This document shows, in pieces, positions 3-28,818 of a DNA stretch of 64,000 nt. The stretch comes from Primula veris. Its lineage: Eukaryota; Streptophyta; Magnoliopsida; Ericales; Primulaceae. The position numbers were made by a program, and so were the translations under genes. How positions within the stretch are numbered: the stretch's first letter is position 1; each line of letters starts with the position of its first letter. The stretch covers positions 33,624,795 to 33,688,794 of the forward strand of contig OY821740.1 of NCBI GenBank assembly GCA_963682055.1, read 5' to 3'. Below the pieces are notes generated by a model. It was not told where the DNA came from and did not search any database. It saw nothing but the letters and a program-made list of their open reading frames with translations.

Positions 3-1259
3 GACCCGCGTCGTGAAGCGGAAGATCCCGCCTACAGGGCCGCCCTAGAAGCGGCTGGTCAGCGACCCGATACAAGATTGCCCCACCAAGGGGGCAATGT
101 CCCAATGACGATCCCTCCAGTGGTCATCCAACCGAACACTCATACGGAACGGCTCCACACGAAGGACGGTAGATATCCCGAACATAGGATCGGGGAAGGA
201 TATGGCCCACCGCCACATCAAGGGGGATACCTTCCCCCCTACCAAGTCACGGATGATGCGTTCTAACAGGCTTGGAACGTATGCCAAGAAACCCCATGTA
301 CCGAGCAGATCACTCGATATCGCAATCCTATGGGGTTCGTCATTCCCGAGTTCAGGCTCTATGATGGAAGGAGTTGTCCTATTGACCATCTGAGGCACTA
401 CAAGACGAAGATGGAGCTGTGGAGTGACAACCATGCACTGATGTGCAAATTTTTCAAAAACAGCTTGGGCCAAGAGGCTTCTTCGTGGTATCACAACTTA
501 CCACGGGGCTCAATAAGAGACTGGGCAGAGCTGCTAAGAGCGTACTCCACCCGATACGCCGCACATCGGAAGAAGAAGGTTAGCATTGAAACCCTTCTGA
601 AAATGACGATGACGCCAAATGAAAGGCTCAACGACTACTGCATATGTTTCATTGACGTAGCAAATCAGATTCCGCAGTACGCCAATAATATAGTCATCCA
701 GAACTTTATCAATTCCGTCCCTAATGGCTATTGGGCGAGGAGGAAGTTCATAGGCAAAAACTTCCCGACCACTGATTCCCTACTAGCCTATTGCACCCAC
801 CTCACCGATAAAAACGACGAACTACGTTTCCTCAACCGAACTCTACCAAGAAGAGAATCGGTCCGAGAGGCACAGGTGGGTCGCAAAAGAGTTAGGAATA
901 ACCAGGGGGAAACGTTCCAACCGACCAGAAAGGACAAAGGTCCCGAGGTCCGTAGCAGGGTAGAGCGACCACGAGAACCCGAGCCCAAACTGCTCCAGAT
1001 CGCATACCCAACACCGACCAACGAACATAAGCCGCTCCAGCTCACCTACCCAATGCCCCCCAAACCGTTTCAACAAGGTTGGCTCCCAGAGAGGGAACGC
1101 CGAAACACCTACGAACCGGTTGAGCTGCGATACACTTTCAACCTATCTGCTGAAGATATCCTCAAGGATATATGCAGGGAAAGTTGGTATTCCCGACCAC
1201 CGCCGATCACTTCTTCCCCCCAGTATGAGAGACTCCAAGCTCTTCTGCGCATATCATGA
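3..1259 (+). pseudogene. gag: Retrotransposon gag, interrupted
   Basis: Gag is the structural protein that packages the element RNA. The frame is open from the window edge, is stopped by TAA at 264-266, and continues in the same frame through the conserved gag core (about 330-830; residues YDGRS, LPRGSI, MTPNERLNDY). A basic, proline-rich tail follows, up to 1259. The zinc-knuckle-like C-x2-H-x4-H-x4-C block typical of Tat gag (CAYHEDHGHLTEHC) is read in the next frame at about 1249-1290, so a one-base shift lies near 1195-1225. A run of six C at 1216-1221 is the likeliest place. The N-terminal part is outside the window. Confidence 0.85.
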
Positions 1260-3555
1260 GGATCACGGCCATCTCACTGAGCACTGCCGTAACTTGCGAT
1301 GGAAAATGAACCTATGGGGCGATGCGGGATATTTAGCAAAGTTCATCAAAGGCGTTGGAAATAAAGGCAAGGCAAAACAACTGGCCATCGAGGGAGCCGA
1401 CAACCGGCAAGGCAAAACAATCAACGTCGTTCACATGTCACGACCCAAGAGCACAGGTGGGGATCGATCACGACAACGGCAATTGGTGCACTTTGGCCAA
1501 GTAGCTAAGGCATCACAGTCGTCGACTTCTAAACGACAATGCACACCTCGACAATATCCGCCCATTTCTTTCTCAGGCCTTGACGAAAAAGGGGTGATTT
1601 ACCCCCACGGAGACGCCATTAACCTCCGTGTTCAAATCGGCCTTGACACGGTCAGCAGGGTGTTTATCGACCAAGGAGCCTCTTGTGATATAATGTACAG
1701 GGAGCTCTTCGACAAGATAGAACTCAAGCTGCAAGATCTACAGCCTACCGATGTCACACTGATCGGATTCATCTCCGAAATGACTAAACCGTTGGGTAAG
1801 ATCGTCCTCAATGTCACAACTGGATCCATGTCTGTTCCCGTGGAGTTCTTAGTAGTCAACGACAACTCCGGCCACAACGCAATATTGGGCCGACCTTGGT
1901 TACATGCCATGAAGGCCATACCCTCGACTTACCACCAAAAAGTCAAATACCCAAATGATAAGGGAGAGATCGAGACAGCCAGAGGATGCCAAGAGGATTC
2001 AAGGCGCTGTGAGGACATTACCGCGGCCCTTCAAACACAGCTGAGCGTTGTCGAACAACCCACCAGCACAAAGAAGCTGATCAACCACATAGTCAAAACC
2101 GAGAGGGTTGTCGAAGAACAAGTAGGAGAGACACTTAGGAATGTGTATATCCCGGATATGGACGAGGAGCACTATTTCCTCCTCGGCGATAACCTTCCAA
2201 AACAGGAATCCGAGGAGTTAGAAGCGTTCCTTTTCAGCAACATTGATAAATTCGCCTGGAGTCCCAAAGACATGCCGGGCCTAGACCCTAATACGGCATG
2301 CCACCACCTAAGTGTTAACGCCGAATATAAGCCGATAGCGCAGAAGAGCAGAAAAATGTTCATACAGCACAGAGCAGCTATAATCGCTGAAGTGCAAAAG
2401 CTATTGGAAGCCGGAGCCATAAGGGAGGTCTACTACCCAAAATGGTTGTCCAACCCGGTCGTCGTCCCAAAGAAGAATGGAAAGGAGAGAGTCTGTATAG
2501 ACTTCACCAATCTCAACAAAGCTTGCCCGAGGGACCACTTTCCCCTTCCAAGGATCGATCAATTGGTGGATGCAACTGCGGGAGCAGAACGGATGACCTT
2601 CCTTGACGCGTACTCAGGATACCATCAGATTCCCCTCGCCCACGAGGATCAGGAAAAGACATCGTTTATATCGCCTTTAGGAAATTATTGCTATACGGTA
2701 ATGCCGTTCGGCCTACGCAACGCGGGGGCAACATACCAAAAGATGATAACAAGGGTATGTCGAGATCATATAGGGAAAACAATGGAGGTATACATTGACG
2801 ACATGGTCGTCAAGAGCGAAAAGGCCACATCCCACCTCCAAGACCTTAGAGACGTCTTCCAAACGTTGGGCGAGCACAAACTAAAGCTCAACGCGAGAAA
2901 GTGTGCGTTCGGCATCAGCAAAGGGAAATTTTTGGGGCATATGGTTAGCCGACGAGGAATAGAGGCTAATCCCGATCAAATCGCAGCTCTACGGAACCTA
3001 GCAGCACCCAAAAATAAGAAGCAGGTACAAGAGCTCACGGGAATGATGGCCGCGTTGAGCAGGTTCATCAGCCGATCCGCAGACAAGGGACGGCCATTTT
3101 TTGAATCACTCAAGAAGGATAAGAAATTCGAGTGGGACCCGGAATGTGAAGCTTCATTCAACAATCTCAAAGAGTACTTGAGGACGCTGCCACTGCTAGT
3201 AAGGCCGAACAAAGGAGATATTCTGGCGTGCTACCTAGCAGTTTCCACTACAGCTGTGAGCGCAGTTATCCTAAGAGAAGAAGGTCGCGAACAATTTCCG
3301 ATCTACTTCGTCAGCAAGACTCTGGTCGAAGCCGAAACACGTTACCTACCCTTGGAAAAGCTGTGTCTGGCATTGGTCGTCGCAACCAGAAAATTACCAC
3401 ACTATTTTATAGCTCATCAGGTCCGTATATACACGAAATTTCATATCAAAGAGTCACTTCGACGGACAGACATCAGCGGTCGAGTTGCCGCCTGGGGGGT
3501 CGAACTATCCCAATTTCATATCGAGTTCGTACCCCGTCATGCCATAAAAGGGACA
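1222..3555 (+). pseudogene. pol: Retrotransposon pol: protease, reverse transcriptase, RNase H
   Basis: This frame encodes an aspartic protease with active site IDQGAS near 1665-1682, preceded by the RVQIGLD strand. Reverse transcriptase runs from about 2440 to 2960, with the catalytic YIDDM at 2791-2805 and the FLDAYSGYHQIPL and MPFGLRNAGATYQ blocks. A Ty3-type RNase H follows (about 3220-3550), with YLPLEK and the carboxy-terminal VPRHAIKG. The frame is lost at about 3550, where one extra base separates it from the archaeal-type RNase H and integrase frame. The domain order and the short linker to a second RNase H fit Tat elements. No in-frame stop occurs within this part. Confidence 0.88.
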
Positions 3556-5326
3556 AGTCTTGGCCGATTTCGTCGCGGAGTTCACCGAAGGCTATGACGA
3601 GCCTTTGGCACTCTCTCCAGAATCACACTGGCAGATACATGTCGATGGATCAGCCACCAAGGACGGATCCGGAGCAGGGATCGTCCTAAAGTCTAAAGAG
3701 GGAGCAATCATCGAAAAAAGCATAAAACTGGGCTTCCGAGCTACCAACAATGAGGCAGAATACGAAGCCATGATAAATGGCATGCTCATTGCCCGGTCCC
3801 TTGGGTGCTCCCACTTAATTGCAAGTTCAGATTCCATGCTGATCGTCAATCAAGCCATCGGCGAGTACCAAGCCAAGGATGACAGAATGATCCTTTACCA
3901 GGAAAAAGTCCAAAGCTTGATGACTACTTTCGAGCAGTGCGAGCTAATAAAAATCAACCGCACTGAAAATGCACATGCCGATGCCTTGGCCACCCTAGCC
4001 TCGACATTAACATTAACTGACACTCGGTCGATCACAGTGGAACTACTGCCGACCCCGAGCATAACCAAAGGAATAGACCGAGTAACATCAGTACAATATG
4101 AACTAGGTTGGATGGACGACATGATTCACTACCTGCGGAGCGGAACCCTCCCGGCAGATAAGATAAAAGCACTGAAAATTACGAGAAAGGCTCCTCGTTT
4201 CTGGCTGTCCGACGACGATAAACTGTACAAATCCAGTTATCGAGGACCCCATCTTCTGTGTGTCCGGTCCGAAATGCAGCTACCGGTATTGGAGGAAGTC
4301 CACGAAGGATCCTGCGGAGCAAACATCAAAGGGCGGTCCCTTGCCAACAAGGCAATCACCCAAGGATATTGGTGGCCCTATATCAAGCGAGACGCCGATT
4401 TATACATCCAACGTTGTGACAAGTGCCAACGATTCGCCAAGATACCACGGCTCCCATCATCTATGATGATCCCGGTCACGGCACCGTGGCCATTCGCTCA
4501 ATGGGCAATTGATATAGTCGGGAAGCTTCCCAAAGCACCCGGCAGCGTCGAGTATCTGATCGTGGCGACGGACTACTTCACCAAATGGGTTGAGGCTAAA
4601 CCTCTCCGAGAAATTAAAGCCAGTAATGTCAAACAGTTCATCTGGGAGCACATCATCACAAGGTTCGGTATACCATACGCCATCGTCGCAGACAACGGCA
4701 CCCAGTTCAAGGAAGCCAATCTGCAGCTTTGGTACGAAGAACTTGGTATCCGAAAGTTCTATTCGACGCCAACATACCCACAGGGTAACGGCCAGACAGA
4801 GGTATCAAACCGAACCGTACTAGACGGCATCAAGACAACCCTTGAACAAGCAAAGGGGAGATGGCCCGAGCGGCTACTTAATGTTTGATGGTCGTGCCGA
4901 ACTACACCGAAGACGGGCACCAAAGAAACCCCGTTCAGTTTAGCTTATGGCGTCGAGGCCGTCATACCGACTGAAATCGGGCTACCAACACTACGAACAA
5001 CTTTAGTCGAGCAAGGAAACAATGAACAAAGAATGAGAGAGGAACTCGACATGCTAGACGAGAAACGAGAGATAGCAGCTCTTACGCTAGCTAAGTATCA
5101 ACAAGGCGTTAAGCAAACGTATGACAAGAGGGTGAAAGGGACCAAGGAGTTTACGGTCGGAGAACTGGTGCTGCGACGTGTAACGGTCTATACCCGAAAT
5201 GAAACACATGGCAAATTGAGCCCCACCTGGGAAGGACCATACGAGATCGTTAAGAGAACAAGCCCAGTTACCTACAAACTCAAAAGCGTCCTGTTCGACA
5301 AAAGCCGAGGAGAAAAGAATTCTTGA
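3556..5326 (+). pseudogene. pol: Retrotransposon pol: archaeal-type RNase H and integrase
   Basis: The second RNase H starts near 3625 (HVDGSATKDGSGAG) and keeps the D-E-D-D pattern: VDGSA, NNEAEYEA, ASSDS and ENAHADAL. Integrase follows: an N-terminal zinc-binding region (HEG at about 4303, CDKCQ at about 4420), the catalytic aspartates in WAIDIVG and VADNGTQF, the glutamate in YPQGNGQTE, and a C-terminal domain that runs to 5326 (ELVLRRV, GKLSPTWEGPYEI). A TGA at 4886-4888 interrupts the integrase core just after the catalytic glutamate block; the same frame continues beyond it to the stop at 5324-5326. The second zinc-binding histidine appears replaced by asparagine (SCGANI where the family usually has a CG-x-H motif). 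Confidence 0.87.
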
Positions 5327-15098: not shown

Positions 15099-15672
15099 TG
15101 ATAGAACATAAAAGTTTGACCCGAATATTCTATTCGGGTAATAATCAACCCCCTTTTTAAACGGGTATCCAATGCTTAATTGGGTCATCTCATGCCTTTC
15201 ATAAGAGAATAAAGATAGATATTACCAAAAGCCCAAGCCCACTTAACTAGGGACCCATATCTGAGAAACCTCCTGAGATTGGGACATTTGTCAACATCCT
15301 AAAAGGCGTAGTGGCCTATAAATAGCCAACTACCCCCATAGAAAAAGGACCAGAAAATCTATCCAAAAATTATAGAGAGAAGTTGAGAAAAGAGATAAAT
15401 TAGTTAAAGCTTATCACGCCAAGAAATAAACCGAACAGAGATAAAGCCGAGTACCGAATAAAAGGGGAGAAAGACCAAGAAGAGAGATTAAGTAGTCAAA
15501 TCGAGCACAATTGTAATACAGAGATACTGATCCGAGCAAGTGTAATAGTCCGAATAAGGATAATAATCCGAGCAATAATAAATATCAAGAAGTGTCCATA
15601 ATTTATAGTTGATTTACCATTATATTATTGTTGAAAAGTCTAACGTGACCGACCAAAATTATGGCTTTATCA
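15099..15672 (+). mobile_element. 3' LTR of the Tat element, 574 bp
   Basis: Begins TGATAGAACAT and ends GGCTTTATCA, giving the terminal inverted repeat TGATA/TATCA. The bases just before it (GAGGAAGTCAGGGAGCAG) are purine-rich and may be the polypurine tract. A promoter-like CCTATAAATAGCC is at 15313-15326. The ends were set by comparison with the inverted solo copy at 16145-16716. Confidence 0.9.
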
Positions 15673-16144: not shown

Positions 16145-16716
16145 TGATAAAGCCATAACTTTGGTCAGTCGCGTTAGGCTTTTCAACAATGATATAATAG
16201 TAAATCAACTGTGAATAATGGACACTTCCTGATCTTTATTATTGCTCGGATTATTATCCTTATTCGGACTATTACACTTGCTCGGATTAGTATTTCGGTT
16301 TTACAATTGTGCTCGATATGACTATTTGATCTCTCGTCTTGATCTTTCTCCCCTTTTATTCGGTGCTCGGCTTTGTCTGTTCTCGGTTTATTTCTTGAAG
16401 TGGTGTGCGTTGATTAGTTTCTCTCTTTTCTCAACTTCTCTCTATATTTTTTGGATAGTTTTTCTGATCCATTTCTAGGAGGGGTAGTTGGCTATTTATA
16501 GGCAACTATGCCTTCTAGGATGTTGACAAATGTCTCCATCTCATGGGGTTTTTCAGACATGGGTCCCCAGTTGAGTGGGCTTGGGCTTTTGGTAGTAACG
16601 CCTTGTTATCCCATAAAAAGCAGGTGATGACCCAGTTAAGCGTTGGATACCCATTTATAAAGTGGGTTGACTATCACCCGAATAGAATATTCGGGTCTAA
16701 TTTTCATGTTCTATCA
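16145..16716 (-). mobile_element. Solo LTR of the same Tat family, 572 bp
   Basis: The reverse complement matches the 3' LTR at 15099-15672 along its whole length, with the same ends TGATAGAACATG and GGCTTTATCA. It is flanked by a perfect 5-bp duplication, CAAAT at 16140-16144 and 16717-16721, so it is a true solo LTR left by LTR-LTR recombination. Its TATA box is TATAAATA on the minus strand at 16493-16500. Confidence 0.95.
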
Positions 16717-20463: not shown

Positions 20464-21739
20464 GTCTCTTCTATAGTTCTTTGGTTTCTTACTCATATCA
20501 TCTTGACTTATTGTAATTACCTTTTAATTTATCTAATTAGCCTTAAGTAACTTCTTATATATTCTTGTCTTGGGGTCGATTTTTATTGTCTTTCAATTGG
20601 CATGTGTCTAATAACAATAGTACAAAGAAATTGTCATTGATAAAATATTTGGTATGATTATTTTGTAGATGGAAACCATATTGGATTCATCATTCTGCAG
20701 TTGGTCTAAATTGTGTCCTTAAGCAGTAATAACCTATTCTTGCACCTGATTATTTTTATCTTTTAAATAGCATTTTGTCAAATGTCAATGATAAGGACCA
20801 ATTTTGTCATACGTAGAATAATTGGTATCATTATTCTGTCAATAGATAGCTTGCGGTCCAAAAGTGTGAACTACGATATAACAATGGATACCATTAGTGA
20901 AATTAATATTTATTCCATTGAGTGGAATGAAATTTGTCACCTTCCTCAGCGAGTAATAAGTAATTACAGGGCACCATCACATAATGTTAAAAGGTAAACT
21001 AACTCATTCACTATTAAAAAAATTATTTACACCTAAATTCACATGTACAATTAGAAATTCAGATTCCACATGAGAAAATTGGTAGTAACAGAATACTTCT
21101 ACGTATCAAAACATCCTTTGTAAGGAATATTTTTAATTTCGCGTCTACCTTAAAGCAGTATATATAGTTTTAAGATCAAGGTAAGAACTATGTACATAAT
21201 TATTTCGACAACTAAGTTTCGGCATTTCTAACCTCTAACTAGCAATTACAGGATTTCATACCAAAACAATAATTATCATGACTAGCTTTAGCTCCGTTTT
21301 TGGAGATGGTTAGTTCAATATAAATTGGCATGCTGTGAAAATTTAATATCAATGTATTTGAATTTTTGAAGTGTCAAAAAGCTCAAACTCAAATCATTTT
21401 ATATAGAAAGTGAAGGGGTTAAGGTTGTAATTACTAGATTTCCAATTTAGACTTTTTGTACATATCTCCTTTCTCGTCTGTTTCTTGCTACACAAAATGT
21501 AATGTACTGAAATACTAAAATTGCGCTTAACTATATATGTGCTATTTTTTGTATGAGTTGGGGGCAAATATGTATTTTTCGAGGGATTACTTATCTTGCA
21601 GACCCTGCAAAGAAGCGTCAAAGGACGTCAGACGAATATTATTTCGTATTACGGTTTAAAAATAGGCTGTTTTGTTACTATTATTACGTATCTGCCATTT
21701 ACAATAATAGGACTATATAAACAATAAAATAAATAGTTC
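20464..21739. other. AT-rich spacer, nothing recognised
   Basis: Short ORFs only, without domain content. It ends at the insertion site of the copia element. Confidence 0.5.
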
Positions 21740-21963
21740 TGTTGTAGGATATTATTGGACTATTGGGCTTGTACTTTATGGGCCCAAGTGGGCTTATAAC
21801 CCTACCCCTCTATCTATATAAAGAGGGTTAGGGGTCTTGTATTTTACATTCATTCATATACATTCTAATTAATAAAGACTCGATTGTTGTCTCTCTCATA
21901 TCTCTCTCTATATCTATACATATCTCTATATATATCTATAACGAGCTAATATGTCACACAACA
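21740..21963 (+). mobile_element. 5' LTR of the copia-type element
   Basis: A TATA box CTATATAAAG is at about 21815-21824, and an AATAAAG that may serve in polyadenylation at about 21872. By eye it is identical to 28582-28805. Confidence 0.93.
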
Positions 21964-22059
21964 CGTTATCGGCACTTTGCTCGCGAAGAATAGAATATAC
22001 GCTCACGAATATTGGAGATTTTTAGTAAACGGATGTATATTGGGTATTTATAAACCTTG

Positions 22060-23160
22060 AGGTTTATCCGGGTTTTTAGGGTTTTGCTATATCGACCTTC
22101 ATCGACATACCGTGCGTAAGGTACCGAATTCAAAACTTAATTTATTCCATATATGTGATCGCACGTATTATTTTATGGATAACTAAAACATGATAAATAT
22201 CCCGTAGTATATAATCCATGTGTATTAGAGTTTGTTACTTGTATGGATAACTATATATGATCGTAACACACATATTGTTGATTATAAAATCATATTTGTT
22301 GATAAGATCATACAAAATAACCCAAATCATGTAATTGTAAAACATGTATTAATCTGTCGGATTAAATCTGCAACAAACTGAAACGTATGTACTGATTTGT
22401 AATTCTCTGAAAGCTGTAAACTATTCTGGAAATTACTCAAGGACTAAACTGAAACTTGTCTGAAATTATGGACTGAAGCAGTAATAATGCTGTAAATATA
22501 TATATATAGTTTGCTGAAATTACACGGATAGTCCCTGTAGTATATTACATGTATAAAAACAGTATATATGTGTTATAAAAGTCAATATTCGGTCTAAATA
22601 TTCACCCACATGCATATATATTTATTAAAAAGGCAAGTGAATAAAAATTGCATGTTAATTGAATAAATTGATATGTTTCCATGTATATTTAACCACTTTG
22701 CATGTTAAAAATTACCATATATAGAATTAATTGGTAATTAAAAATATATTGTTTTGCTTGTATGTTAAAACTACCATGTATAGAATTATTAATATGGCAA
22801 TAAACATAGATAATTGATTGATATCTTGTTAGCGTAATCATATCTTTTGATATTATCATATATAAATATCACATATGCCAGTAAATTATTGGATTAGATC
22901 TAATTGATTTGATTTAATATGTTAGAATCTTTATGGATTGATTGATAATCTTAAATTGATTTGATTTGATATGTTAGAATCTTTATGGATTGATTGATAA
23001 TCTTAAATTGATTTGTTTATAACACCAAATCTCCTGCATGATTAGATAGATCCTAAAATATATTTACTGCCTGTTTATATATATGTGGTTAATCTAGATA
23101 GATATTCTCTATGCTGTTAATATTATTGCCATATATAAAATACGAAAATCGTATATATTC
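22060..23160 (+). other. Leader of the copia-type element, AT-rich
   Basis: No ORF. Contains two near-identical direct copies of about 52 bp at 22922-23020 (GTTAGAATCTTTATGGATTG then ATTGATAATCTTAAATTG) and two short hairpins: ATAAACC/GGTTTAT around 22053-22070 and TTAATC/GATTAA at 22349-22365. Confidence 0.6.
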
Positions 23161-24935
23161 ACATTTAAGTTGGAAAAATTATGAATCTTCCCCAAATAGG
23201 CTCACCTATTTGGATACGATGTCTAGGAAAGATAAAGGCGGAAGTCGTTCTCCTAATGAGGTCGGTTTTTAAGAGGCATTCGTGCCCACCCCCCTCACCG
23301 TCTTTCCTGGTCGTGTTCAAATAGAGCTACCGAAAGGGGTTGACTAAATAATAATTTCCCCGAGTGTGTTTATATAGTGATGTATGTTTCGCCGAATTGG
23401 TGTTTCAGTATCGACCCGTCGTTCGATCAATGAGAACCGATTCACATGAGAAGCAAAACTAATGTTTTCGAACCTGTCGTTTCGGAAAAAAAGTTTGTGC
23501 TTGTGCAAACCATAAACATATAAACCAGTCGTTTTATATGAAAAATAATCCAGAACTCCCAACACATGTTGGATGCCATCTATGATGAGAAAAATCGCAA
23601 AACATACTTGCGAAATGACTGTTTAGACGTTGATGTTATTCCGTCACCACATGTTAGTCACCCTGATGTGTGAAAATGTGATGCCCAAATTTTTTTTTGG
23701 ATGCCATCTTTGATGAGTAAAACACGAGTTTGTTGTTACCCTCAGGATGAATGCTAAGGCGTTGATTTTATTCCGCCGCCACATTTGAGACGTGATGACG
23801 TCTATGGTGAACAAATGTCTGAAATTGACATATTGGAGCAATCCTTCACCAAAATACTAGCTTGGAAATTGTATTTCATAAGCAGTATTGTGAATTTATA
23901 TTCACAATGTTCTTTTATCGCCCATCTGTTATTGGATAAGAAAATTACCCCGGTGAGTAATTTTAATCCTATTGGATCAATGGCGAATTGTTTGCCTGAT
24001 ATTAATGCTCTTCGTGTACATTTTTTTTTTCCACGAATCGATAATCGAGACAAGTGTTATTTGTCTCGAACTGTCACGATCCCGATGAATCGCTTAGCCA
24101 AGCGAAATTTTAGACAATAGTCAAAATCGAAAACCTGTGGCTCCAAGACAGTAATTGAACGGAACAATATGACCCGTTGTCACAAAGCAAGAGATAATGC
24201 TCAATGAAGCAACTCTATGCTATAAAGACAAATGTCATGCACGGTTACTCCTTAAATAGTTCATAACTATTATAAAGGTGAAAAAACCGATGTTAATGTG
24301 GTTAAAGCTAACTGAAAGGAAACTCTTGAGACCCCCGGTTTTGTGGCTCAAATAAGTTTGGTACCTTTCTCTATTGATTTTGATAAATCATTGAGCCATT
24401 TTTTCGCTCATCTGGATTATGTTTTTCCATTTGGATTATGATTTTTTCCATTTGGACATACTTTTGGATTATGGTTTGCCTGTTTATGAAATTTCTCGAA
24501 ATAATTTAAAGTGTTTTGAGCAAATTCCTTTGACAAATGTGACCAAACTTTAAATTATGAAATTTTAGGCAATACTTGTGGTGTAGTTGGTTTTTTTGGA
24601 AATAGTGGGTAACACGGTACCACATAATTTCACCAACTACTTGCCTAAAAGAGTACTCAGTGACAATGATTCTGGACCTGTCGTTCCAAAATCAAAATCT
24701 TTGGTAAAACCAAATTGATTTGTCAAATATGAGTTCTTATACTCATGTAGGTCCTGCCGTATCTTGTTGAGTTATAAAATATTCGAGAAAACCAGTGTTA
24801 TCTGGTAATAGCTCATGAAAGAATTAAAATTTCTTTACATAGCCTCCATTCAATACGACCAAAAGCGTATTTTAGAGAAGTTGAAATGTCTTTCAAGTGG
24901 TTGCTACCACATTATTTAAAGCATTTAAAGTTACC

Positions 24936-24965
24936 TTATCATTTCGCCTGTCGTCGAAATGATAA
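24936..24965 (+). repeat. Longest hairpin, 11-bp arms, loop CCTGTCGT
   Basis: Arms TTATCATTTCG and CGAAATGATAA are perfect complements around the 8-nt loop CCTGTCGT (24947-24954). A second hairpin with the same loop and 9-nt arms (one mismatch) follows at 24999-25024. Confidence 0.95.
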
Positions 24966-25319
24966 ATGATTTAGATGCTAAGACATGATTGTCTGTACTA
25001 TCATTCGCCTGTCGTCGATTGATAAGAGCATTTTGATATTGTGGCATTGACCGGATGAGATATTCCCGGGTCAAAAGACGATGCTTGATTTATAATCGCA
25101 TCGCATTTGGATTCTCTCTGAGAATATATTTCGCGATTAATCCGAAATTCATGCCATTAATGCTCACTTTGAAAGACTAGTATGTGTAAAGATCACGAAA
25201 TGAACTCGTAGAATTCTTGTAAAGAATTGAAGGAGTTATTGTGGACTTATCCAACCATAAGACGGACTATAAATATAAATGGTTATGGTTGATGCATCGA
25301 CAATATGGTCACATTTTAA

Positions 25320-25713
25320 TGTTGTCCACATAAATGCAGCACTTTCCAAACTTTTAGCCCTATCATTAAGTTGATGGCTCATGATCCGGATTATCCTGAA
25401 AAGTCTAGTCGACTTGATAATTCCGAAGAGTAATAATCGAAATTTCGATTTGAATTACCTGAGTTTGGAAATTGAAATTGAACATCCTGTCGATTATGTT
25501 CAGATTATGTTCAGACCCAAATGGACTCACGGAAAGTTTGATGATGCGACTGCAAATAATTGCACGCATTTCTTGGTCGTGCGCACCAAGATTTATATTT
25601 CCGTGTGGGGTTATGCTATTTTGCTGCATTGGTCCGTTATGAGGCCCATAGACACTCAAACACCATATGCGTACCAGCTGGTTACTGGTTATGAGACAGA
25701 AGTCTCATATTAA
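25320..25713 (+). pseudogene. Copia integrase remnant
   Basis: The core is readable: AHDPDYPEKS then RLDN at 25377-25421 matches the catalytic-core block around the second aspartate in plant copia integrases. In the next frame LEIEIEHPVDYV, SVWGYAILL and YQLVTGYE (25440-25705) correspond to GIEVEHPV, SAWGHAIL and LVTGYEP of the family. Frame changes and substitutions break it; several of the changed stretches are exactly the ones that form hairpins. Confidence 0.8.
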
Positions 25714-26574
25714 TGCGTGTTTAGAGTGATTAATTAATATTTTGATTGAGCCGTTCTAGCGTTCAAAATATGGACCTCTGAAGGGGACATAAGTCGATTA
25801 TGAATCTCCTGCCTATCATTTGATAGAATAACCTTGGCAAGCGATCTCTTTACCGCATGATATGCGAAAGTGACATCGCTAAGACTGTTCTCCCCGTCGT
25901 TAGGGGGAGATTTGCACGTTACCGTTGATAAGGAACGACGTGAAGTAACGTGGCATAACCCACTCAGTCTTAGCTTGATCCCCAAAACTGCACTTAGTGA
26001 TAAGTAAGTGCATAGACTCCTTCAAGTCTAACTAAATGCCAGACGCATTTAATGACTTTATGAGATGTCACGAGATCATTTATACCTGCTGCAAAATGCT
26101 TGCAAGGATAGACGTCCCTGTCGGACGCTGTGTTCCTGTCGTAACACGTTGCTTTGGCCGAACCCACCAAGCAAATGACGCTGCCGTCGGCCGTCAGTCT
26201 ATCGTCCTTCCTAATATATGAGGAAGTTGACCGGTTCTTAATTCGTTCAGCCCCAGAGATGGTGAACTGAAACTCGTTTGTCGCACGAGATTACAAAGGA
26301 TCTAGGAGATGTGTGATTCCTCCTCATCCTGAGAATCTTGAAATATCTGTCGATCATGATATCTTAGACGATATTGAAGCGAAATGAGACTGTCATTGAT
26401 TACTTATTCATATATTCGGTGACGACTGATAATATGAGCAAATTATGACAGAGAACCATGTACCGTTGCCTGAAGTCAACGGAGAATAGACTGTACTAAT
26501 GGAAACTTAAAATCCAAGCAGACTCCTTAGCGAAAGTGTGTTCGGACCTGTAGATCCAACACCACCAATGTTAA

Positions 26575-26840
26575 ACGAGTTCGTTTATTTGGTTATTCGT
26601 AAGGAAAAGTGATGAGAATAATGAGATTGTAGAATGCTCGCCTAGTAGCGCAAGGCTTCTCTCACACCTTGGAATTGATTACGAGATGGTTGATTTCCTC
26701 GTAATGGACATTATAACAGTCCCCTACTTTACCAGTTTAGTAGTTTCCGAAAAACTGAGTATGCAGCCATGAATGTGGTCACAGTTTTATCTCTATGGGG
26801 ATTTAGACAAAGCGATACAGATGAAGGTCCCTGTGTGACT
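26575..26840 (+). pseudogene. Copia reverse transcriptase remnant
   Basis: Codons for NNEIV (26617-26631), VMDIIT (26701-26718) and YGDLDKAIQMKVP (26794-26832) match the start of copia RT (R-x-E-NNEIV, the PVMD-IT block, YGDLD-x-x-IYMKVP). They lie in different frames. The catalytic YVDD block is not recognisable further right. Confidence 0.8.
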
Positions 26841-27189
26841 TCATAATGCTTGAATCAAGTAGTTCCTGACCACGGAACACGATCTCAATTAAATGAGACG
26901 TTCACTATATGGATTAATATAATCCGAGCGGATGTGGTATACCCGCCTAAGTGAGTACTTGATTAGCTTGGGATACTTGAACAAGTATTATGCCCTTGCG
27001 TGTTTTATTACGCGATCCATTTTTGGATTTGCCTTCGAGATGAAGGATTTTGGGAAGACACGGTAGTGACTCAACCTGATGATTGAGTCCCGTAAATATT
27101 GAATCTAAGTCCATGATTCAGACTACACCCAGAAGGTGTTATGACGTTTTAGTCATCATGACGCTAAGTCGTCAGATTCTCCCATGATC

Positions 27190-27690
27190 GTTCGATCACT
27201 AGACATTGATATAGACCTAGTCCGTCCCAGATGAGACGATGAAGAGATATTGAACAATAATGTTCGTATCTACGTACAATAAGCGCATCATTGTACTTGG
27301 TTTAATGTGCTAGGACGAACATCTCGTCTGTTGTGAATGGTATAGCTCGACACAACATCGCGCTAACACGCTGCCATCGAAATGGCACTAAAGACACATT
27401 CCCTTACCTTATGGTAATTTTGGAAGTGGGCTAGTTTATCCCATTTGCGTCATCGAGTGTACCTACCCCCTTCGGTACTCAAATTAACGCAACCCTTTTT
27501 CGGTTATACCGATGCCTGTTACTTATCAGACCCGCATTAGGGATATTCCTAACATGGTATGTCTTTACCATAGGAATAAGGCGACATCTTGGAGGTCTTG
27601 GAATGACTCCAAGTGAATCACTCTGATCTATTCGTGCTCTATGAGACGACTAGATAGTGTATATGGCTTCGAGCTAGTATTAGTCATATT
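27190..27690 (+). pseudogene. Copia RNase H remnant
   Basis: SLDIDIDLVRPR then DDEEIL (27196-27255) matches the family block before RNase H. YTDACYLSDP (27505-27534) matches the Y-x-DA-x-YLSDP motif carrying one catalytic aspartate. Stops and frame changes interrupt the rest. Confidence 0.75.
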
Positions 27691-27829
27691 TGAATTACAT
27701 ATGTTCTGTCTCATGATCCAGATAAAACACTTGTCATAGAAGACAACTTATTGTTATTGATCAAGAGAGACATGACTACATTATGCTATTTAGCATTTCT
27801 TGCCGAAATTAATCTTCACAAATGAAGTT

Positions 27830-28510
27830 TAAGAGCATCCAGTTGAATGCTCGTTCTATTCCACGTTAGATTTTCTTGCATTCAGTCGTATGTAAGTAAA
27901 TGAGGCATCCAGTCGAATGCTCGTACTCTTTCTTGGAATATGAAATCTTTGCACCCAGTTGTGTGCAAGTGAGGGGGAGCATCCAGGTGAATGCTTATTG
28001 CACTAATTACTACTTATTCGAAATCTTCGCACCCTGTCGTGTGCAAGTGAGGGGGAGCATCCAGTCGCATGCTCGTGTACTCTTTTTGTCCTTAGACCAA
28101 GGTTTTTTCCCACTGGGTTTTCCTTGGCAAGGTTTTTAGCGAGACACGTTCCCATCATACCTCACTTAAGATTGCCGAAATTAGGGGGAGTATCCTGTTG
28201 TATACTTCTTACCACTGTGTACTCTTTTGTCCTTCGACTAGAGATTTTTTCCCACTGGGTTTACTCTAGCAAGGTTTTGATGAGGCAGCTGTTTTGTGGT
28301 TGATCCCTACTACTACCATTGTTGCACTCTTTTTCCTTCGATCAGAGATTTTCCCATTGGGTTTGCTCTGACAAGGTTTTGATGAGGCACACTGTTTTGT
28401 GGTTAGTTAATTACATGGAATTTCGGCCTATATCATTCGGCTACACAGTTTCTCCTAGGTACCGGTTTTGTCCCACACTGGGTTTTCCGTCCCTAAGGTT
28501 TTTATGTGTT
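27830..28510 (+). repeat. Reiterated 3' modules: GAGCATCC hairpins and CCCACTGGG hairpins
   Basis: GCATCC-AGT-G-ATGC hairpins lie at 27833-27852, 27905-27920, 27978-27995 and 28055-28074; TTGCAC or GCAC hairpins at 27949-27968 and 28029-28044; AGTAT/ATACT at 28189-28206. AGTGAGGGGGAG, a polypurine-like tract, occurs twice before the real one. The plant-copia motif TTTTTTCCCACTGGGTTTT occurs four times (about 28103, 28244, 28348, 28463). Its flanking arms differ but pair: CCAAGG/CCTTGG, CTAGAG/CTCTAG, TCAGAG/CTCTGA. Confidence 0.85.
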
Positions 28511-28581
28511 TAGCATTGCGAATGAACTCGACTCAGATCGACTGCATGAAGACGAAGAATTCAAGACGTCCAAAGGGGGAG

Positions 28582-28805
28582 TGTTGTAGGATATTATTGG
28601 ACTATTGGGCTTGTACTTTATGGGCCCAAGTGGGCTTATAACCCTACCCCTCTATCTATATAAAGAGGGTTAGGGGTCTTGTATTTTACATTCATTCATA
28701 TACATTCTAATTAATAAAGACTCGATTGTTGTCTCTCTCATATCTCTCTCTATATCTATACATATCTCTATATATATCTATAACGAGCTAATATGTCACA
28801 CAACA
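28582..28805 (+). mobile_element. 3' LTR of the copia-type element
   Basis: Identical by eye to 21740-21963. Preceded by AAAGGGGGAG and followed by the target duplication AGTTC. Confidence 0.93.
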
Positions 28806-28818
28806 AGTTCAAATATAT

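Follow-up and report, generated by a model that had tools for sequence, protein, structure and literature searches.

Shared leader and recurrent CCNGNNGW hairpins in a gene-dead copia-type retrotransposon family of Primula veris

How could a retrotransposon family without usable genes spread to about 1,000 sites, and why is its interior packed with perfect hairpins? The question is raised by a long terminal repeat (LTR) retrotransposon at 21740-28805 of a 64,000-nt stretch of Primula veris DNA (assembly GCA_963682055.1, contig OY821740.1, positions 33,624,795 to 33,688,794, forward strand). This stretch is called the window, and positions are counted from its first letter. The assembly carrying it holds 436.5 Mb in 34 contigs; the analysis covers this one genome and about 25 of some 1,000 family copies. 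Nineteen hairpins with unrelated arms in the element have the 8-nt loop CCNGNNGW in common on the + strand, and its leader is near-identical to that of a coding relative, the LTRs and genes being far more diverged. The favoured reading, held at a probability of about 0.55, is that of a non-autonomous copia-type family which came from a coding lineage of the same genome and is mobilised by its proteins, with the leader and the CCNGNNGW hairpins as putative Gag recognition sites.

Anatomy and size of the family

The element has the parts expected of an LTR retrotransposon, namely identical LTRs, a 5-bp target duplication and a purine tract before the 3' LTR. The identical 224-bp LTRs and the perfect AGTTC duplication of the original prediction were both seen.

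21735..21739, + strand: left target site duplication AGTTC, perfect against the right copy
21740..21963, + strand: 5' LTR, 224 bp, identical to the 3' LTR
21964..23149, + strand: AT-rich 5' untranslated part; identity with the coding relative 41-67% by 100-bp bin
22197-22212, + strand: weak motif hairpin with ATAT/ATAT arms in the 5' untranslated part
28572..28581, + strand: purine tract AAAGGGGGAG before the 3' LTR, which from its position we take to be the polypurine tract
28582..28805, + strand: 3' LTR, 224 bp, identical to the 5' LTR
28806..28810, + strand: right target site duplication AGTTC, perfect against the left copy

The copia pol is in pieces, as had been predicted. Read in frame from 23100 it holds 141 stops, the forward frames are full of stops, and the sole stop-to-stop piece of at least 120 amino acids (aa) in the element is 120 aa long. 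Two pieces searched alone against Pfam, a protein search with an 86-aa piece and a plasmid search gave zero matches. Membership of Ty1/copia comes by way of a coding relative, L045, in which integrase precedes an RVT_2-type reverse transcriptase (RT). L045 has two long open reading frames (ORFs), with Pol_BBD, gag_pre-integrs and rve in ORF 1 and RVT_2 in ORF 2. The studied copy aligns to it in the same domain order over 24231-28408, with about 73% identity over 24240-28400 and 55-90% in the 100-bp bins of 24200-27799.

Twenty further copies, fetched from nine contigs, differ from the studied copy by 0.1-6%. Both LTRs lie inside the fetched stretch in 18 of the 20, the two LTRs of a pair being 98.2-100% alike, and 17 of these 18 have a perfect 5-bp target duplication. 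The 30-bp hairpin at 24936-24965 is carried by 1,073 genome sites with at most three mismatches. The family is large and recent and, as read from the frames of the studied copy, gene-dead; with many recent copies and no usable genes in the one copy translated, it is non-autonomous in the manner of large retrotransposon derivatives (LARDs). The twenty copies on nine contigs, the perfect duplications and the 1,073 sites of one hairpin leave practically no room for an assembly or sequencing artefact, which was rejected as far as the assembly can tell. An eleven-base tandem duplication, GATTATGTTCA, occupies 25492-25513 of the studied copy; its second unit is missing from 11 of the 20 fetched copies, and the duplication therefore marks a subgroup.

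The shared leader and the CCNGNNGW hairpins

The leader was compared with L058, the part upstream of the coding copy L050, which holds an open gag frame. Identity in the 50-bp bins of 23150-23349 is 90, 98, 100 and 92%; it is 73-88% in the next four bins, 32-73% in the bins of 23550-24249 and 41-67% upstream of 23140. Within this leader a 229-nt rod is predicted to fold at -74.9 kcal/mol (z -5.37 on the + strand, -3.16 on the - strand; z -3.89 in L058). Fourteen coding stretches were fetched, ten with a leader match and four without, which together with L058 gives 11 coding leaders. Over these and the studied copy (12 leaders, 78 pairs, 932 cells), 789 cells of the rod are Watson-Crick, 116 G-U and 27 unpaired, and three pairs have changed on both sides yet are still paired in some rows. 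A 47-codon short open frame at 23181-23324, beginning ATGAATCTTCCCC in the studied copy, lies in the conserved leader, and the relative's stretch is nearly the same; this probably reflects constraint on the RNA, and it may be an upstream frame.

The motif hairpins follow the rod. The nineteen are distributed over the leader (3), the gag-derived part (3), the pol-derived part (6, plus one with a mismatch) and the 3' untranslated part (7).

23150..23378, + strand: leader rod, 229 nt, predicted to fold as a closed long-hairpin RNA domain
23410..23427, + strand: leader motif hairpin 1, loop CCCGTCGT
23465..23488, + strand: leader motif hairpin 2, loop CCTGTCGT, with one T-G pair in the studied copy and perfect in some copies
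23517..23540, + strand: leader motif hairpin 3, arms CATATAAA/TTTATATG, loop CCAGTCGT
23658..24092, + strand: gag-derived part with motif hairpins at 23658-23673, 23941-23964 and 24077-24092
24667-24694, + strand: motif hairpin, inner 4 pairs perfect, then one mismatch
24936-24965, + strand: motif hairpin with 11-bp arms, its stretch absent from L045 and L058
24999-25024, + strand: motif hairpin of 3 pairs, one mismatch and 5 pairs, outside the nineteen
26130..26147, + strand: pol-derived motif hairpin, loop CCTGTCGT, aligned place in L045 without the motif
26463..26482, + strand: pol-derived motif hairpin, loop CCTGAAGT, aligned place in L045 without the motif
27068..27089, + strand: pol-derived motif hairpin, loop CCTGATGA
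27223..27238, + strand: pol-derived motif hairpin, loop CCAGATGA in the studied copy, CCTGATGA in 21 of 22 copies
27833..28206, + strand: array of seven motif hairpins in the 3' untranslated part (27833-27852, 27905-27920, 27949-27968, 27978-27995, 28029-28044, 28055-28074, 28189-28206)

The three leader motif hairpins are common to the studied copy and the coding relatives. In most rows they read ATCGR-CCYGTYGT-TCGAT, TTTCGAA-CCTGTCRW-TTCGAAA and CATATAAA-CCHGTYGW-TTTATATG, and the remaining rows have worn arms or loops; in L058 the arms of the third are unchanged and its loop is CCTGTTGA. A fourth, TTTTTCT-CCYGTTGW-AGAAAAA in most rows, occurs in coding rows only and runs into an ATG in 9 of the 11, likely the gag start to judge by the open gag frame of L058. 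Among the 47 leader loops of the studied copy and the 11 coding rows, 30 of 141 cells at loop positions 3, 6 and 8 depart from the commonest letter, as against 6 of 235 at positions 1, 2, 4, 5 and 7. As expected of a packaging signal, the structure is folded and lies in the leader up to the putative gag start. A folded, near-identical leader beside gag, common to the dead and the coding family and bearing a recurrent loop motif, resembles a packaging signal for a Gag acting in trans.

Along the rest of the element the motif was sought as CCNGNNG[ACT] within 23180-28580, a hit being the exact loop of a perfect arm of at least 4. The pattern has 29 sites on the + strand and 2 on the - strand; hairpin loops are found at 19 of the 29 (20 with one mismatch allowed) and at neither of the 2. 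In 500 shuffles the mean number of motif hairpins was 0.028 and the maximum 1. Outside the element the window has 108 motif sites on its two strands, none of them in a hairpin; of two in the LTR and 5' part, one is in a hairpin, with the arms ATAT. At 11 of 14 sites the exact subset CCWGTYG stands in register, and offsets of 1-4 have none. For 6 of the 19 hairpins, RNAfold pairs loop position 2 with 7 around an NGNN tetraloop. The recognition hairpin of Smaug/Vts1 has the consensus CNGG, and the present hairpins are not of this type, G being at loop position 5 in 2 of 19. A search of 21740-28805 with 4,227 Rfam models gave no match at E <= 1, and no description of such a system was found in the literature as judged by titles and the starts of abstracts.

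Twelve of the motif hairpins lie outside the 3' part. For five of these a motif loop is also present in the aligned relative (23415, 23473, 23525, 24677 and 27075), with worn arms except at 23525. At the other seven the motif is absent from the aligned place, the alignment being poor in the gag-derived part, where L058 has no motif at the places aligned with the hairpins of 23658..24092. Opposite 27068..27089, L045 has the loop CCTGCAGA without a perfect closing pair; within the family one arm pair of this hairpin is A-T in 16 copies, G-C in 6 and C-T in 1. Two hairpins of the 3' array recur in L045 in altered form, one as TTGCAC/GTGCAA with the loop CATGTCGT, the other with AGCAT/ATGCT against AGTAT/ATACT. 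Each coding pol piece has 1-4 motif hairpins, placed elsewhere and all on the + strand (8 of 8 sequences); in 12 pieces from other copia lineages the number is 0-1. A motif hairpin near position 908 of six coding pol pieces was considered as the counterpart of 26130 and rejected, the aligned stretch being missing from the studied copy.

A second 3' element was also observed on the + strand, with three repeats in 28100..28389 (28100-28145, 28242-28287 and 28344-28389), each holding TTTTCCCAYTGGGTTT between pairing ends. The ends change together (CCAAGG/CCTTGG, CTAGAG/CTCTAG, TCAGAG/CTCTGA), and related stretches occur at 5290-5440 of L045.

Excess of perfect hairpins and how the arms vary

Beyond the motif, perfect hairpins of any loop sequence are in excess. 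Counted as perfect arms with loops of 3-8 nt in 23180-28560, against 100 dinucleotide shuffles, they number 85 versus 32.2 +- 5.6 for arms of at least 5, 38 versus 8.5 for at least 6 and 14 versus 2.1 for at least 7. For arms of at least 8 the original prediction had at least nine in 23192-26012; the region and the excess were borne out, and the count came to 8, all inside that region, against 0.46 +- 0.67. The excess thus survives the dinucleotide-shuffled control that had been proposed for it, and chance or base composition as the source was rejected on these comparisons. In 21968-23179, the 5' untranslated part, no excess was found. Counts above the shuffled ones also occur in other 5.4-kb stretches of the window, at 1.05- to 1.9-fold for arms of at least 5 and 0.9- to 2.9-fold for at least 6, less than the 2.6-fold and 4.5-fold of the element; the two highest owe much to (TA)n arrays. 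The excess peaks at loops of 2-8 nt, is weaker at 13-20 nt (54 versus 39.4 +- 5.9) and is absent at 9-12 and 21-40 nt. In 150-nt windows the mean folding z is -1.8 on the + strand and -1.7 on the - strand (18 windows), with a control of -0.3 (38 windows). An excess is also seen for short direct repeats at 4-20 bp (49 versus 23.5).

A host exon, named acyl-CoA ligase by look and without family search, has no excess of arms of at least 6 (4 versus 6.5). Two Ty3 stretches, at 14 versus 11.6 and 14 versus 7.2, likewise have none at this arm length, though the second does show an excess at arms of at least 5. The window holds a large Ty3/gypsy-like coding stretch at 267-5326 with frames of 330, 877, 446 and 145 aa (type judged by eye, without family search), a control without excess at arms of at least 6. 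Elsewhere in the window one perfect hairpin with 9-bp arms, ACCCGAATA...TATTCGGGT, occurs twice, at 15119-15139 and 16676-16696, 1.56 kb apart and in opposite orientation (loops ttc and gaa); the two are possibly the ends of another mobile element.

The excess is older than the loss of the genes. A pattern search for related copia copies returned 314 sites, which belong to at least two sub-lineages. In a 2.4-kb pol stretch the studied copy has 46 hairpins versus 13.4 by chance, and coding-lineage relatives have 24-33 versus 12-14, enriched in 8 of 8, some of the eight having stops or frameshifts themselves. Shuffles that preserve the codons leave the excess in place: 41 versus 24.5 in L045, 25 versus 12 in L050, 23 versus 12 in L051, 22 versus 14.6 in L047 and 24 versus 14.6 in L046. 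Other copia lineages were compared by their RT stretch (12 fetched, 8 distinct). Under the same shuffles, of the eight only L038 departs upward (z 2.4), L034 and L036 lie below, and the host exon and the Ty3 ORF do not differ from the control. The parent family of the studied copy is not among the 12 RT stretches. L045 carries at 49-1204 other sequence before its protease/integrase frame, without a gag stretch of the L058 type; not every copy of the coding lineage is therefore complete. The predicted tie between hairpins and gene loss accordingly holds in part: the excess is stronger in the gene-dead family, but coding relatives are enriched too, also at synonymous sites, and gene loss as the sole source was rejected.

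The variation of the arms was followed between the studied copy and L045 and among family copies. Hairpin sets were defined on one of these two sequences, and the comparisons lean to the defining sequence. L013 and L025 were left out of most family counts and L015 out of the polymorphism counts, for large gaps or a non-homologous end, and sites with more than two states were skipped. Changes that complete an arm fall 66 times on the left arm and 64 times on the right. All of them lie on one arm in 11 of the 22 hairpins that have two, in 2 of the 13 that have three and in 1 of the 5 that have four, about as in coin-tossing; of the double changes 14 keep a Watson-Crick pair and 11 do not. Second arms had been predicted to arise by such change at two places. 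At 25480-25501 the arms are already present in the coding relative and so were not made in this family; at 27554-27571, by contrast, the relative lacks pairing at two of the six pairs. Arms with one mismatch are not enriched in the studied copy (G-T 7 versus 9.3, A-C 10 versus 8.4, others 35 versus 35.2), and of the classes counted in three coding pieces, A-C at 6 or more pairs is raised (8 versus 4.2, z 2.6). Among 634 polymorphic events in the family, 57 break a hairpin versus 88 expected (z -3.7; 60 versus 92 without merging neighbouring sites), long-loop controls stay near expectation (68 versus 75.5), and gains number 37 versus 33 expected. Weak conservation of the hairpins is likely.

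Weighing the readings

Under the favoured reading, the Ty1/copia-type family of some 1,000 sites would derive from a coding copia lineage of this genome, whose proteins may mobilise it in trans; the shared leader and the coding relative in the genome are suggestive of this. The RNA would retain its cis parts, the 229-nt rod and a row of CCNGNNGW hairpins beside the former gag start, and the hairpins would be recognised by one of the coding lineage's proteins, Gag during packaging being the likeliest. No longer bound to code, the family carries hairpins of this type scattered through its dead genes and in tandem in the 3' untranslated region, about 20 in total, which would favour its RNA in particles. 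A bolder form, in which former coding sequence has turned into an array of recognition hairpins for the relative's Gag, a dispersed packaging code by which the family out-competes the relative (about 1,000 sites), is offered tentatively.

Several observations weigh against the favoured reading. Within the family the constraint on the loop is weak: 13 of 76 site-positions vary at loop positions 1, 2, 4 and 7 as against 13 of 57 at 3, 5 and 6. By cells the figures are 16 of 1,672 and 51 of 1,254, with 21 of the 51 from one site where the studied copy is the odd one; since the copies are related, the cells do not count as independent. In the 2.4-kb pol stretch there are 4 motif hairpins in the studied copy and 1-4 in coding copies; the extra ones are therefore those of the gag-derived part, of the region near 24.7-25.0 kb and of the 3' array. 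Coding sequence is the origin of some pol motif loops (CCTGTCGT at L045 3585). Breaking changes are not depleted for arms of at least 6 (40 versus 43). A comparison of shared with private arm variants gave nothing significant; it is a weak one, as the LTRs of many copies are identical or nearly so and most private variants therefore probably predate insertion too. Varying pairs in coding copies do not favour G-U (355, versus 336 A-C), nor is there a clear preference in hairpins defined on the studied copy (29 versus 32) or on L045 (26 versus 17). The mark of ordinary constraint on RNA structure, G-U favoured over A-C in varying arms, is thus not found here; the leader rod differs, with 116 G-U and 27 unpaired cells. 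Lastly, the leaders may be near-identical through recent recombination with the coding family and not through constraint. For that the two RNAs must meet, presumably in one particle.

The original prediction set selected RNA structure in a non-autonomous family beside fold-back template switching by reverse transcriptase. The former gains ground in a sharper form, through a loop motif on one strand, a folded and conserved leader and the deficit of breaking changes (57 versus 88), this last without depletion at arms of at least 6. Fold-back, which would perfect imperfect palindromes and leave the hairpins as a mutational footprint without function, fits an enrichment confined to perfect Watson-Crick arms (2.65 times for at least 5, 4.6 times for at least 6), the near-equality of G-U and A-C, the peak at hairpin-sized loops and the excess of direct repeats. 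However, conversion followed by decay should leave one-mismatch remnants, which are in excess nowhere in the studied copy and only in the A-C class of the coding pieces. Completing changes are split evenly between the arms and are not clustered on one of them, and gains are not raised, where by our reckoning the enrichment would need a rate several-fold higher; fold-back is therefore not the main source. One loop sequence on one strand is not explained by it either, and it is considered improbable.

Selection for another role (stability of the RNA, a shield against small RNAs, translational control of gag, or a host RNA-binding protein reading the loop) would suit an RNA densely set with hairpins, which coding relatives have at synonymous sites too, and the fourth hairpin running into the ATG would suit translational control. 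But such control cannot account for some twenty motif hairpins in a gene-less RNA, and shielding needs no common loop sequence; this explanation is thought unlikely. Very unlikely is simple inheritance, with hairpins from the coding lineage merely drifting in the dead family and the leader gained by recombination. The roughly twofold enrichment of all eight coding relatives and the three leader motif hairpins common to both families speak for it. Against it, at about 27% divergence the studied copy has 46 hairpins where coding copies have 24-33 and chance gives 13.4, only 10 of its 70 hairpins are perfect in L045, and the aligned relative lacks the motif at seven of the 12 motif hairpins not in the 3' part, allowing for the poor gag-derived alignment. 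The broader hairpin excess is a trait of the whole lineage, and weak selection on folding may be what keeps it.

Parallels to the proposed packaging system come from several sides. LARDs of cereals have a long non-coding interior between LTRs and a high copy number, are thought to be mobilised in trans, and a structured, conserved interior has been proposed for them. The present family shares the non-coding interior and the many copies; its interior, however, still aligns with copia gag-pol, and in it a hairpin with a common loop recurs, which LARDs are not known to show. Murine leukaemia virus has neighbouring leader hairpins with one loop sequence, tied to dimerisation and packaging. GACG tetraloops are the loops described there (PMC516450). 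Adjacent leader hairpins with one common loop are likewise found here, but the loop differs, and in the virus it is not known to be dispersed through the genome in some twenty copies. The leader of Ty1 contains a pseudoknot and uses kissing loops. It serves translation start, packaging and priming, and its folded 5' end beside gag has cis sequences for packaging and dimerisation (PMC8396678, PMC5454406). A folded leader adjoining gag is thus common to both; unlike the Ty1 structure, a 229-nt rod is followed here by several hairpins of one motif, with more copies along the RNA.

In MS2-like RNA phages one capsid protein recognises many hairpins along one RNA. Dispersed packaging signals are described for them (PMC4751978). 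Many hairpins along one RNA are seen here too, as candidate recognition sites in a plant LTR retrotransposon. Structure throughout coding RNA is known as genome-scale ordered RNA structure in RNA viruses. The coding relatives resemble it in having structure beyond codon-preserving controls; unlike it, the enrichment here is in perfect short Watson-Crick arms, with no preference for G-U. For Sirevirus copia elements a conserved inverted repeat near the polypurine tract is proposed as a primer-making signal (PMC2829016). In contrast to the one inverted repeat around the tract in that description, about twenty common-loop hairpins extend here from the leader to the 3' end.

The excess of perfect short hairpins, present also at synonymous sites and without tolerance of G-U, is a puzzle in its own right. 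To our knowledge, how RNAs of plant LTR retrotransposons are chosen for packaging, and how gene-dead families come to outnumber their helpers, is poorly known. A loop motif repeated about 20 times in one RNA, together with a leader common to a coding relative, would offer a concrete and cheap binding test.

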